Position numbers and translations under genes: made by a program. A model generated the notes under the pieces. That model saw nothing but the letters and a program-made list of their open reading frames with translations. It searched no databases and was not told where the DNA came from. Positions 8,442-16,292 of a DNA stretch of 64,000 bases are shown here, piece by piece. Within the stretch, counting starts at the first letter, position 1. Every line of letters starts with the position of its first letter. The stretch spans positions 124,001 to 188,000 of the forward strand of contig SKJC01000002.1 of assembly GCA_007116155.1 (NCBI GenBank). Direction: 5' to 3'. This DNA comes from Candidatus Babeliaceae bacterium. Lineage in GTDB: Bacteria > Babelota > Babeliae > Babelales > Babelaceae.

Positions 8442-8459
8442 ATACCCTCAAGGATATCC

Positions 8460-9611
8460 ATGATTCAAAAAAATGAAACTATAAACCTGCCAATGGCATT
8501 AATTATTGGACTCAATGCTGCAATTGGCGCAGGTATATTTACTGCACCACTGCCTTTACACCGCATCGCAGGCGCCGCAGGAATTTTTTCATACCTCATC
8601 GTTACCGCTATTATTTTGTGTATTGGACTAGCTCTCACAAAACTCTTGAGACTTCACCCAACACCAGCATTTTTTTATGATTTACCAAAATTATGGGGTG
8701 GCCGATTGGCTGGTTTAACAGCCACATACCTTTATAGCTCAGGACTCGTCGTAGCTCTTGGACTTTTAGGGAAAATTGCCGGTACACTTTTATCTTCACT
8801 CTTTCCCTCTTTTTCACCGACTATCTGGACAATAATTTTACTTTGCACTACCGCCCTCAGTTCTCAAATGGGAACATCATGGTTGACCTGGGGACAATAC
8901 ATACTCTTCTTTTTAACCATTGCACCTATGGCAATTATCGCTTTCCTGGGATTTTCGTTCGGCCATGTATCAAATTTTTTGCCATTCGCACCTAATGGAA
9001 TATCAGGTATTTTGGCAGGTACGCCCATTGTTGCATTTGGTTTTTTTGGATTTGAAGCTATTCCTGCACTCTTTACCCGTATTAAAAACCCAGAAAAAAA
9101 CATTGTTCGCGCAATTTCAGGCACCATACTCATCACCGGTATCGTCTATCTCATTTTTATCGCAAGTATATTCATGCTCTTACCAGAACAGGCATATACA
9201 AACACGTCACTTGGTGAAGCACTCGTATCAGCATTGCCTGCATATAATTGGCTCATACAAACTATTACTTGGGCAATTATTATAACCATTGCCGGAACAC
9301 TTTATTCAATGTTTCCAGCCATTAGCGCAATTTTGCTCCAAGCTCACCGAAATAACAATTCTATCTTGCTTGAAAAATCATTAATAACAGGAATACCTAT
9401 CACCGCAATTATTGTAGCTATAAGCGCATCTAACATTGGTTTATTATTCAACATTACAGCCGTAGGTATTACAGGTGCATTTGGATTGTCAATATTACCT
9501 CTGCTTACCAATATGCGCACAAAAACTGATACATTTCTTGGTATAAACGCTCTTTGTGCATGCATCATCTTACTTAGTTGCGCAATTATTGGGATTATTC
9601 AAGCACCATAA
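8460..9611 (+). CDS. APC-family amino acid permease
   Basis: This inner-membrane transporter has 383 residues and about ten to eleven hydrophobic helices. Helix 1 carries the APC-superfamily unwound motif GLNAAIGAGIFTAP, the site where substrate binds, and helix 6 contains AFGFFGFEAIP, also typical of the family. The start is the ATG at 8460, preceded by AAGGA. The frame is open further upstream, but the extra 84 residues are not membrane-like and overlap a minus-strand gene. The substrate cannot be told from sequence. Confidence 0.85.
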   Translation: MIQKNETINLPMALIIGLNAAIGAGIFTAPLPLHRIAGAAGIFSYLIVTAIILCIGLALTKLLRLHPTPAFFYDLPKLWGGRLAGLTATYLYSSGLVVALGLLGKIAGTLLSSLFPSFSPTIWTIILLCTTALSSQMGTSWLTWGQYILFFLTIAPMAIIAFLGFSFGHVSNFLPFAPNGISGILAGTPIVAFGFFGFEAIPALFTRIKNPEKNIVRAISGTILITGIVYLIFIASIFMLLPEQAYTNTSLGEALVSALPAYNWLIQTITWAIIITIAGTLYSMFPAISAILLQAHRNNNSILLEKSLITGIPITAIIVAISASNIGLLFNITAVGITGAFGLSILPLLTNMRTKTDTFLGINALCACIILLSCAIIGIIQAP

Positions 9612-12623: not shown

Positions 12624-12704
12624 AATTTGTATATTGAATTTTATAAAGCTCGCAAAAGACGTAAGTTCTTTAGAGCTCTAACTATTTACGAATTAGGGGA
12701 AACT

Positions 12705-14123
12705 ATGAAATCAACAACGCAAAAACAGAGTCGCGCTTCTCAAATTACGGGATTACAACGCTCATACCAAGAAATAACAGCATATCTTGATGCACATTGG
12801 CATACCCCACTCAAAGAATCCATGCCGACAATTGTTACGTTTCTTGAATCTGACCTTGCCATTCAACCAAAGCAGCAAAAAACAATTATTATTAGTGGAT
12901 CTAATGGAAAAAGTATAACCGCTCATTTTACAACTCGTCTGCTTCAGTCAGAAGGATTATCAGTAGGTACTCTCCTTACTCCACATACAAAGGCATATAC
13001 TGAACGCATATCGTATAATGATGAGCAAATTTCGCTACAAGAATTTACTGATCTTGGCAATACTGTTCTCAACGCTGCCAACACCCGTAATATAGCACTG
13101 CCAAGTTCTTTGGTGCTTGATGCAATTGCACTTCTTTTCTTCACAAAAAAGCAGTCAGATGTTTTAGTTATTGAAGCAAATACGAATTTAGTTGCTCAGT
13201 ATGGAGAATTATATAAGACCAATGTTCTTGTCGTAACACGTATAACTAGTGAAAACACTGAACAATCCGAAGAAAAACAACTTGCAATAATTGCAAAAAT
13301 TCGTTCTCTAATTCAATCGGGAACACATGTTATCTCTGGTGACCAACTAAAACAGCATCTCCAAGCATTAGAAACTATAACTAATGAGCAAAACGGCATA
13401 TGGGAAATGCCTATTCGCAAACTTGCTCCATTAGGATATCCATTTGAACAGATTCATGGTCGCTGCGCTGCATTAGCAGAACGAGCTTCAAGTATTTATA
13501 TGAATTCCTGGGGTACAGAAGAGGCTACTATTGTTAATGAAAGCCTTCTAGTCAAACAAAAAGGTAAACGTGGTCGCCCTACGCTTGAAGCAAAACAACA
13601 AGCAAAATTACATCCAAAAAAAACCATCGATCAATTCTGGAAAGATACATTAAACGAACTTCCATCACGTTTTGAATTGAGAGAAGAAGAATCACCTGCT
13701 GTTATTTTAGATAACGCTGATAATCTTGATGCTCTTGAGAATCTCTTACTTGGTGCTCGCTTACTACATTATAAGCGTCCAGTAAAATCATTAACACTTA
13801 TTATGAGTGCTGAAGCTCAAAATTTTGAAACAGAATCGTTTGTCCGCGCAGTTCGCTACTTCTTCAAGAAAACACCTGGTCAAATCTTTATTTGTCCACT
13901 GGACCAAAATAATACGCCATGGACTTCCCCGCAAGGTTGGGATACGAGCGCATTAGCAGCAGAATTTACCAATAAAAAAGTTAAAGCATCAGCATTTACT
14001 TCATTTGCAAAGGCCTTTGAAGCCGCAAAAGATGTAAGTAACCCCGAAGACGGACTTATTGTTGTTACTGGATCAGCAAGCATTATTACAAGCTACTTAA
14101 AATATCGCGGGTCAGCAAAGTAA
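12705..14123 (+). CDS. FolC-like Mur-ligase family protein
   Basis: This is a 472-residue ATP-dependent ligase of the FolC (folylpolyglutamate/dihydrofolate synthase) and Mur superfamily. The P-loop is GSNGKSI (about 65-71; family GTNGKGS), followed by the switch region around LTPHTKAYTERI. The C-terminal domain opens with PSRFELREEESPAVILDNADN, matching FolC PxRFE...VILDGAHN. The start is the ATG at 12705, preceded by AGGGGAA. Two oddities stand out: the usual EVGLGGRxDATN segment is reduced to IEANTN, and residues 286-293 form KGKRGRPT, an AT-hook-like motif in the linker before the C-terminal domain. The exact substrate is therefore uncertain. It is monocistronic, with a strong terminator. 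Confidence 0.7.
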   Translation: MKSTTQKQSRASQITGLQRSYQEITAYLDAHWHTPLKESMPTIVTFLESDLAIQPKQQKTIIISGSNGKSITAHFTTRLLQSEGLSVGTLLTPHTKAYTERISYNDEQISLQEFTDLGNTVLNAANTRNIALPSSLVLDAIALLFFTKKQSDVLVIEANTNLVAQYGELYKTNVLVVTRITSENTEQSEEKQLAIIAKIRSLIQSGTHVISGDQLKQHLQALETITNEQNGIWEMPIRKLAPLGYPFEQIHGRCAALAERASSIYMNSWGTEEATIVNESLLVKQKGKRGRPTLEAKQQAKLHPKKTIDQFWKDTLNELPSRFELREEESPAVILDNADNLDALENLLLGARLLHYKRPVKSLTLIMSAEAQNFETESFVRAVRYFFKKTPGQIFICPLDQNNTPWTSPQGWDTSALAAEFTNKKVKASAFTSFAKAFEAAKDVSNPEDGLIVVTGSASIITSYLKYRGSAK

Positions 14124-14217: not shown

Positions 14218-14511
14218 ATGCTTCTTTCATTTAACTCGACACTATCTCTTGCCTTCATCAGCCTCCTAATTCTTCTCTGTACCTTCTATGAATATCAATT
14301 ATTATTACATCCCAACAAAAAAAAATCGTATTCCTCACGCTACCTACAATTCCTGCACATAGGACGAACGTTACTCTTACTTCTCTGGTTACTCCTTATT
14401 TTTAAGTTGAAGTTACCCCTCTTTGGGAATATACTCGTTGCCATAGTATTCAGTAGCATATATACAGGTATGCTATTCTTTTTTTGGATAACCAGTAATA
14501 AAGGAACTTAG
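14218..14511 (+). CDS. small membrane protein at the AtpI position
   Basis: This 97-residue protein has three strongly hydrophobic segments with a basic loop (HPNKKKSYSSRYLQF) between the first two. No family motif is visible. Its position directly upstream of atpB, with its TAG sharing a base with the atpB GTG, is where AtpI, the assembly factor or Mg channel of F-type ATP synthase, is usually found. AtpI-like is therefore a context-based suggestion. A ribosome site AAAGG precedes the ATG. Confidence 0.55.
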   Translation: MLLSFNSTLSLAFISLLILLCTFYEYQLLLHPNKKKSYSSRYLQFLHIGRTLLLLLWLLLIFKLKLPLFGNILVAIVFSSIYTGMLFFFWITSNKGT

Positions 14512-15341
14512 TGGAAGAACAAGCTTTATTCCATACCGACATATGGAATCCTCTGGCTTATTTGGGCATTGAAAATCATTTTTTCGACTTAAACTTAGAA
14601 ACACTTACCCATACTTGGTTCGCACTGCTTATTATTCTACTTGCCTCCATTTTTGCGCGCATTGCGATCAGAAAACCTGAAAGTATCCCCGGACACTTAG
14701 TATTAAAAGGGATTCGTAGTCTTTATTCACTTATTCAACAGTCACTCGGACGAGTCCGCTCCTATCACTTCTATTTTATTAGCTCAATCTTTCTCTTTAT
14801 TTTTATATGCAACGCGCTACCACTTTTGCCGTTTCTAGAAGAACCAACAAAAGATCCAAATACCACATTTGCTTTAGCAATCATTGCCATTCTCTTTGCT
14901 CAAATTGAAGGCTTAAAATCGCACGGCTTCATGGCTTTTATACAAGAATATTTAAAAATGCCGCTCACGCTTTATAATAGAAAAAAGCCGATTACTCCTC
15001 AGATCCCTTTTATCATAGCAAAAAGCTTAATCAATATTGTTGCAGGAGGCTTAAGCTTTCCGCTTGAACTCATGAGTAAAAGCGCTAATTTAATCTCTCT
15101 CGCACTACGACTTTTTGGCAACATTTTCGGCGGAGCAGTTATTGTTGGCTTACTAAAAAAAGCTACCAGTGGCTCTATACTTATCAATATAATTTTAATC
15201 GGGACAGGTCTAAACCTAATCGTCACATTCTTTTTTGGATTATTCGAAGCGTTTATCCAGGCATTTGTTTTTACAATCCTTGCGACAACCTACCTCTCAC
15301 TTGCAACACAAACGCATGAAACCTCAAATCAACAAACCTAG
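14511..15341 (+). CDS. atpB: F-type ATP synthase subunit a
   Basis: Subunit a forms the ion half-channels next to the c-ring in the inner membrane. The 276-residue protein has the diagnostic helix SLALRLFGNIFGG with the essential arginine at residue 200, and a final helix FGLFEAFIQAFVFTILATTYL that matches the family end. The N-terminal FHTDIWNPL fits the usual start of subunit a. The start is a GTG with AAAGGA upstream. Genes for b, delta, alpha, gamma, beta and epsilon are not in the window, so the F1 part must be encoded elsewhere. Confidence 0.92.
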   Translation: MEEQALFHTDIWNPLAYLGIENHFFDLNLETLTHTWFALLIILLASIFARIAIRKPESIPGHLVLKGIRSLYSLIQQSLGRVRSYHFYFISSIFLFIFICNALPLLPFLEEPTKDPNTTFALAIIAILFAQIEGLKSHGFMAFIQEYLKMPLTLYNRKKPITPQIPFIIAKSLINIVAGGLSFPLELMSKSANLISLALRLFGNIFGGAVIVGLLKKATSGSILINIILIGTGLNLIVTFFFGLFEAFIQAFVFTILATTYLSLATQTHETSNQQT

Positions 15342-15350
15342 GACCTCTGT

Positions 15351-16292
15351 ATGAATATGCACTACGCACCCGTTCTTCAAATGCTTGCAACCAGCATTAC
15401 CCTTCTTGCCCCATTAACCGCAGTTAGCATCTCACAAAGTCTTTCTTCAAGGACGGCCCTAGAGGCCATGAATCAACAACCTGGTGCATTGAGTGTATTA
15501 CGCAAAACTATGATTTTAACATTAGCTATAAATGAAACTAGCGCTATTTTTGCCTTACTTACTACATTACTTATCTTTATGGGGTCTTGTACAAGCGTGG
15601 CTGAAGGGCTCGGCTATTTAGGCATGGCTTTTGCTATGGCAATCCCAGCTATTGTCGTTGGCTACCTATCAAATTTTCCTATCCGAAATGCAATTGTATC
15701 ACTTGCCAGACAGCCGAACCTTGCAACAAAACTAACCACCTTGCTGCTAATCGTATTAACAGTTCCCCAGACACCGGTAATTTTTGGTTTTGTTATGGCA
15801 ATCGTAATAAAACAATATATTATCACTGGGATTCCTCTGGCATTTGGAATAAAGCTTCTTGCAAGTGGCTTTGCCCTCGGATTTGGCGCCGTAGGACCTA
15901 GCATCGGAATCTTTCTTCTCGCCTCACAAGCTTGTTATTCTATCGGCATTGTAAAAAATTTATATGAACGAATTATCTCGTTTATATTCATTAGCCAAGC
16001 AGTTATAGAAACACCATTTTTATTTGCGCTGGTTCTTGCATTTTTAATTATGTTTTCTTCCATAGATTCATGGATACTCGCAGCCCCAATTGCAGCAGTT
16101 ATTATCTCCCTTGCGACACTCACTACAGGAATCGGCTCTGGAAAAATAGCACAAAAAGCATGTGAACAAATTGCATATAATACAGAGATGACACCCACGC
16201 TATCACGCACAAGTTTACTAGGACAAACCTTTGTGGATACGAACGTTATCTATGCAACACTGATTGCATTGGGCATCTTATTTCTTAGCTAA
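15351..16292 (+). CDS. atpE: F-type ATP synthase subunit c, four fused hairpins
   Basis: A normal c subunit is about 80 residues with two helices. This chain is 313 residues with about eight helices, readable as four c hairpins in tandem. The ion-binding positions fall at E62, Q140, E220 and D296, spaced 78, 80 and 76 residues. In repeats 1 and 2 the polar-loop proline (QQP at 42-44, RQP at 120-122) is exactly 18 residues before the ion site, as in E. coli (P43, D61). Repeat 3 keeps the helix-1 glycine pattern GFALGFGAVGPSIG. Repeat 1 also has Q29 and T63 at the positions of sodium ligands Q32 and S66 of the Propionigenium modestum c subunit. Repeat 2 has lost its carboxylate. A good ribosome site AGGA precedes the ATG. 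The last 15 bases overlap cmk, which is convergent. Confidence 0.85.
   Translation: MNMHYAPVLQMLATSITLLAPLTAVSISQSLSSRTALEAMNQQPGALSVLRKTMILTLAINETSAIFALLTTLLIFMGSCTSVAEGLGYLGMAFAMAIPAIVVGYLSNFPIRNAIVSLARQPNLATKLTTLLLIVLTVPQTPVIFGFVMAIVIKQYIITGIPLAFGIKLLASGFALGFGAVGPSIGIFLLASQACYSIGIVKNLYERIISFIFISQAVIETPFLFALVLAFLIMFSSIDSWILAAPIAAVIISLATLTTGIGSGKIAQKACEQIAYNTEMTPTLSRTSLLGQTFVDTNVIYATLIALGILFLS

Follow-up and report, generated by a model that had tools for sequence, protein, structure and literature searches.

Fusion of c-subunit hairpins in tandem, often with loss of ion ligands, is known from the A/V-type enzymes, where subunit K of E. hirae is joined by proteolipids of three hairpins in M. 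jannaschii and of 13 in M. kandleri (PMC2359735). Among F-type enzymes, the closest described system is the rotor of A. woodii, which combines the fused two-hairpin chain c1 with a single-hairpin c subunit; in structure entry 4bem a single c1 chain accompanies nine c2 chains. Both c genes of A. woodii lie in one operon, the last hairpin of c1 carries Gln in place of Glu (motif Q....QT; PMC7911925), and the organism makes ATP, so that a Gln hairpin and ATP synthesis occur together. The engineered single-chain c10 of Bacillus PS3 demonstrates that fused F-type hairpins still turn, and the passage of PMC8809890 that cites Mitome 2004 reports that a single E56Q substitution in this ring left it making no ATP. 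The standard F-type c subunit, exemplified by cyanobacterial 2wie and the c11 ring of Ilyobacter tartaricus, is a single hairpin and has no four-hairpin partner. In the open-access literature we found no description of c subunits from Dependentiae (TM6, Babelota), a phylum whose members are bacteria parasitic on protists, or of a four-hairpin F-type c from any source, in agreement with the suggestion of the earlier note on this DNA that such a chain is little or not described.

The window, by which we mean the whole stretch of 64,000 nucleotides analysed, encodes such a chain, hereafter c4 (Table 1). The open reading frame has an ATG start, is complete and begins nine bases past the stop codon of the gene for subunit a. 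Four fused c hairpins beside subunit a had been proposed from the sequence, and profile searches bear this out: PF00137 matched the four segments one by one with 33.1, 32.2, 30.5 and 25.1 bits, each above the cut-off of 24, and with 88.4 bits (E 3.6e-25) when all segments were taken together, and TIGR01260 (F0 subunit C) scored 60.8 bits against a cut-off of 43.95. Neighbouring hairpins of the window's protein also aligned with each other pairwise, at z 6.9, 6.2 and 5.6 relative to composition-preserving shuffles. The ion sites fall, as noted earlier, at E62, Q140, E220 and D296, with spacings of 78, 80 and 76 residues, and the loop prolines of the first two repeats, P44 and P122, stand exactly 18 residues ahead of E62 and Q140, respectively. 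An AlphaFold (AF2) model of the single chain, built with an input alignment of 30 sequences from the phylum, has a pLDDT of 95.9 and a pTM of 0.92. In it, eight helices are long enough to span the membrane, a kink of one residue interrupts two of them, and the hairpins are joined by links of 5 to 8 residues. Each hairpin is thus a pair of helices with a polar loop, the second helix bearing an acid, except that hairpin 2 has Gln at this position. A. woodii c1, which the earlier note had singled out for comparison, ranked first (4bem_J) in a Foldseek search with the c4 model, followed by E. hirae K, and 4bem_J was also the top profile match for both c4 and the single-hairpin c subunit described below. 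We conclude that c4 is an F-type c subunit of four fused hairpins, one of which lacks its carboxylate in the window's genome.

Table 1. F-type ATPase genes and c4 hairpins in the window, and related genes elsewhere in the window's genome (G000). Positions without a contig name are those of the window.
Feature	Position	Strand	Evidence and remarks
97-aa small membrane protein, probable AtpI-like assembly protein	14218..14511	+	Precedes a; order as canonical atpI-atpB-atpE
ATP synthase subunit a (atpB)	14511..15341	+	PF00119, 118.8 bits; conserved arginine in LRLFGN, R at aa 200
c4, four-hairpin F-type ATP synthase subunit c, 313 aa	15351..16292	+	PF00137 four times, TIGR01260, AF2, 96 homologues
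c4 hairpin 1, aa 5-77	15363..15581	+	Acid E62 (15534-15536), Q29 at -33, T63 at +1; AF2 helices, site alignment
c4 hairpin 2, aa 83-156	15597..15818	+	Q140 (15768-15770) in place of acid; loop RQP kept (R120 Q121 P122)
c4 hairpin 3, aa 163-235	15837..16055	+	Acid E220 (16008-16010), Pro at +2, Phe at +5
c4 hairpin 4, aa 244-312	16080..16286	+	Acid D296 (16236-16238), Tyr301 at +5
Single-hairpin c, 84 aa	G000:C1 226331-226585	-	Ordinary hairpin; head of cluster
Gamma	G000 C1:284132		One copy in genome
Beta-like match	G000 C4:27002		Other contig than gamma

The rest of the ATPase was sought in the window's genome, which comprises 755 kb in 18 contigs. It contains one subunit a (that of the window, its sole copy), one alpha over the cut-off and one gamma, which indicates one F-type enzyme. 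A search for a second, single-hairpin c, which the earlier note had proposed as a check, did find one; its cluster continues with two b-like proteins, delta (OSCP) and alpha, so that this one enzyme has two kinds of c subunit. The F-type genes of this genome are thus scattered over separate clusters, atpI-a-c4 and c-b-b'-delta-alpha, with gamma apart and the beta-like match on another contig. The two b-like ORFs of 129 and 171 aa, located between single c and delta (L036, G000:C1:217000-236500, at 8453-9317 on the minus strand), have no Pfam or NCBIfam match and are probably strongly diverged b and b'. Likewise, the window's own 97-aa membrane protein has no Pfam match; two of eight relatives match ATP-synt_I below the cut-off (E 0.0035 and 0.0045), and a similar short ORF lies ahead of subunit a in most Dependentiae c4 loci. 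Other identities of the system were rejected. A second complete ATPase is incompatible with the single a, alpha and gamma. The c4 chain falls far short of the V-type K models (PRK14893, 26 vs 188 bits; PRK06558, 23.9 vs 127 bits) and of the N-type (alternate F1Fo) model (TIGR03322, 45.6 vs 130.85 bits), and the window's subunit a falls short of the N-type model for subunit a (TIGR03306, 62.8 vs 302.1 bits).

This arrangement is found throughout the phylum. In a sample of Dependentiae genomes, many of which are metagenome-assembled (MAGs), full-length c4 occurs in 96 of 101, including each of the 68 whose completeness is 90% or more; the five genomes without it are 53-78% complete. The homologues, from many assemblies, are 310-351 aa long and in every case form a single uninterrupted frame. 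Comparison of the same locus in related genomes, as also advised earlier, revealed that c4 immediately follows the gene for subunit a in 94 of the 96, the remaining two c4 genes being at contig ends; most often, in 33 loci, the two genes overlap by four bases. Single c is likewise present in 96 of 101 genomes and accompanies c4 in 92, and among those at least 90% complete it is missing only from G065, whose congener G064 has it. Subunit a is single nearly everywhere (two second matches are fragmentary), with one alpha and one gamma. Beyond the phylum, the search consisted of a pattern-limited contig scan with a six-sequence alignment, a scope that leaves room for c4 outside Dependentiae; all 39 named matches of the scan came from Dependentiae genomes, their records being titled Dependentiae, Babeliales or TM6 or bearing unspecific or wrong names. 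An apparent spread to Proteobacteria/Epsilonproteobacteria was rejected, the records concerned (L100, L114) being mislabelled Dependentiae MAGs (G027, G057).

A tree of the separate hairpins, in which each of the positions 1, 2, 3 and 4 forms one phylum-wide clade with bootstrap values of 97 to 100, shows that the fusion took place once, before the phylum diversified, and that the hairpins have specialised since. An origin of c4 by doubling of a two-hairpin unit was rejected, as the tree, with moderate support, pairs hairpin 2 with hairpin 3, whereas doubling would pair 1 with 3 and 2 with 4. The acid is kept at site 1 in 96/96 proteins, at site 3 in 91/96 and at site 4 in 95/96. Site 2 is acidic (E) in 24/96 and non-acidic in 72/96 (Q in 62, M in 7, V in 2 and G in 1). 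The second site of c4 therefore keeps its acid in about a quarter of the relatives, unlike the dead hairpin of A. woodii c1. Four Glu residues (EEEE) are present in 21 genomes, and chains with all-acidic hairpins constitute a second large clade. On the c4 tree, which is unrooted and was built with the site columns left out, the state of site 2 changes about three times, and acidic and non-acidic proteins are separated by a well-supported deep split except for two, one on either side (G025 and G079). Given that c hairpins elsewhere carry the acid, the simplest reading is that fusion came first and loss at site 2 later; the acid was probably lost after the fusion, the polarity being inferred, as the tree is unrooted. 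Two chains depart from the general pattern. In G079 (L157), Glu at site 2 within a clade of site-2 losers looks like a reversion, and in G032 (L182) the site pattern is DESG, which leaves acids in the first two hairpins only.

We then considered which neighbours the c4 sites could face in a ring. In Na+-type rings one hairpin gives the ion site its Gln and acid, and the hairpin next to it adds Ser/Thr and Tyr. In E. hirae K these are Glu139 and Gln110 of hairpin 2 with Thr64 of hairpin 1, the partner being the preceding hairpin (PMC2359735), and PMC3692424 describes Ser66 and Val63 as supplied by the adjacent subunit and gives the role of Tyr70. Each c4 site was scored in the E. hirae K arrangement, as its own acid and Gln with the Ser/Thr and Tyr of the preceding hairpin. 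The Tyr of a Na+-type site comes from the same partner side as the Ser/Thr. As scored, none of the 96 proteins has a full canonical ligand set at an internal interface of c4. Within c4, the set of Q/E at -33, E, S/T at +1 and Y at +5 can be supplied only by a between-chain interface of hairpin 4 and hairpin 1, and the corresponding outer-edge residues (Q/E and acid in hairpin 1, S/T and Tyr in hairpin 4) are complete in 67 of the 96. When the 96 proteins were read in the opposite direction, sets came only from the hairpin 3/4 pair, in 19 of them. Tyr at +5 is present in hairpin 4 of 91/96 proteins and is not among the listed residues of hairpins 1, 2 and 3; the inner sites lack Gln and Tyr, sites 3 and 4 being without the helix-1 Gln and Tyr partner that single c has. 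The A. woodii c1 alignment has this pattern as well: Phe occupies +5 in hairpin 1 and Tyr +5 in the dead hairpin 2. Single c itself resembles standard F-type c subunits, with the Na+-type residues in most relatives (Q 25/26, E 26/26, S/T 24/26, Tyr 26/26); the copy of the window's genome has Ala at +1, where most relatives have Ser/Thr. The outer edges of c4 could therefore still face canonical neighbours, while its interior has diverged, which is what insertion into a ring would predict. As a sequence pattern, this fits a ring shared with single c, and fits equally well c4 chains closing on each other.

One conserved single c together with one set of a, alpha and gamma per genome makes a mixed ring likelier than one of c4 alone, and we regard as fairly probable an obligate mixed F-type ring of c4 and single c that serves mainly to hydrolyse imported host ATP. 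In such an enzyme, one or a few c4 chains would insert beside many copies of single c, and the ring would turn against the single subunit a and drive, or be driven by, the single F1. With acids in hairpins 1, 3 and 4 and Gln in hairpin 2, as in the window's genome, each c4 would drop one ion step per turn. The ATPase would mostly hydrolyse, TLC-family carriers importing host ATP and the membrane being charged by pumping. Assembly in the same ring, stoichiometry, the hydrolytic direction and the coupling ion are parts of this explanation that we infer. The A. woodii rotor provides the precedent: there, as here, one F-type enzyme is accompanied by one fused and one single c, and the acid is lost in one fused hairpin. 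The likeness has its bounds, as c1 has two hairpins vs four in c4, which takes c4 outside any two-hairpin definition, and the dead hairpin is the last in c1 and the second in c4. The A/V-type proteolipids are more distant relatives in kind, since a, delta, alpha and gamma are F-type here. Several findings count against a mixed ring or against its tolerance of Gln. The c4 and single c genes are in different loci, in contrast to the one operon of A. woodii, and the PS3 result, as given in that passage of PMC8809890, means that a Gln site can harm an F-type ring. In addition, sites 3 and 4, being without the helix-1 Gln and Tyr partner, would give a mixed ring sites that bind the ion with different strength, a mechanistically awkward arrangement, and the Ala at +1 in the single c of the window's genome counts against this reading too.

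The hydrolytic direction suits the metabolism of the phylum. Complex I was found in none of 50 Dependentiae genomes and no credible oxidase in any of the 50, whereas TLC-family ADP/ATP carriers are present in all 50. The sole COX1 match is a 66-residue fragment in one genome, situated at a contig edge (G021:C10:3-206) and likely to be contamination. Hydrolytic use of the ATPase has already been proposed for a relative (PMC6561590), and the idea of the earlier note that the rotor suits ATP hydrolysis in an ATP-rich host agrees with both. The earlier note also deduced a lower ion-to-ATP ratio for a ring of such chains; considering the 21 EEEE genomes and the probable later loss at site 2, a lowered ratio cannot have been the original reason for the fusion. 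If a single Gln stops ATP synthesis by a conventional fused ring, as that passage on PS3 has it, a cell that only pumps would lose no synthesis through the Gln state. The artificial PS3 chain and c4 differ in just this respect, Gln at hairpin 2 being the normal state in 62 genomes, and A. woodii makes ATP where the Dependentiae cell probably burns it.

The strongest competitor, which we consider unlikely, is the ring envisaged earlier that two to four c4 chains close among themselves. It would have 8-16 hairpins, and single c would form a separate or alternative ring on the same a and F1 for use under other conditions. It gains from the position of c4 beside the sole a gene, from the canonical set that hairpin 4 and hairpin 1 of the next chain complete in 67/96 proteins, and from the archaeal multi-hairpin proteolipids cited above. 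It has difficulty with single c, which is kept as one conserved copy, clustered with delta and alpha, in 96 of 101 strongly reduced genomes; a dispensable isoform should have disappeared from some lineages. Single c also appears more conserved than c4 (39-60% vs 28-39% identity to the copy of the window's genome), which suggests that it is a major ring component. Faster divergence of c4 and specialisation of its hairpins could alternatively mean that c4 is an accessory protein derived from Fo, such as an assembly factor, ring plug or ion channel, beside a working ring of single c alone, and the reduction of the G032 relative to two acids (DESG) points the same way. We judge this improbable, since the acids retained at sites 1, 3 and 4, the nearly invariant c-type QP loops of hairpins 1 and 2 and the canonical edge ligands amount to constraint of the kind a rotor needs. 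An artefact, in which a frameshift or misassembly merged tandem c genes, or a c-like eight-helix transporter has nothing in its favour and can practically be dismissed, being refuted by one frame in 96 genomes, family scores over the cut-off for every window hairpin and a clade for each hairpin position.

Cumulatively, a four-hairpin rotor chain alongside single c appears to be an undescribed rotor design, and if c4 and single c do share a ring, no other hybrid F-type rotor in this analysis or in the literature searched would be as extensive, and this one would be phylum-wide. Going further, and only tentatively, we suggest an intrinsically asymmetric F-type rotor throughout the phylum, in which a four-hairpin arc would fix part of the ring, its non-acidic step and its weakly liganded interior lying beside the canonical sites of single c. 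Such a rotor would be the product of a single ancient fusion followed by site loss and would be adapted to pumping powered by host ATP. The c4 design may be suited to cells that consume the ATP they import, and it bears on how ATP-importing parasites maintain a membrane potential without respiration. Hairpin fusion and ion-site loss, usually told together, are separable here, with the fusion occurring once and the loss most likely later, and the natural four-acid and three-acid relatives of the same fused chain allow natural enzymes to be compared for what one missing ion site does to coupling, ring size and direction.

Two minor observations concern the c4 chain and its surroundings. A proline at site +2 (Q/E-T-P), in helix 2 beside the ion site, is present in hairpins 2 and 3 of more than 90% of c4 proteins (in the window, P142 at 15774-15776 and P222 at 16014-16016) and is absent as a conserved feature from hairpins 1 and 4 and from single c. 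Upstream, the window carries at 12627-14123 a Mur ligase/FolC-like gene with a weak Mur_ligase_C match and a K/R-rich GRPT stretch, and relatives of this gene lie upstream of atpI-a-c4 in many genomes.
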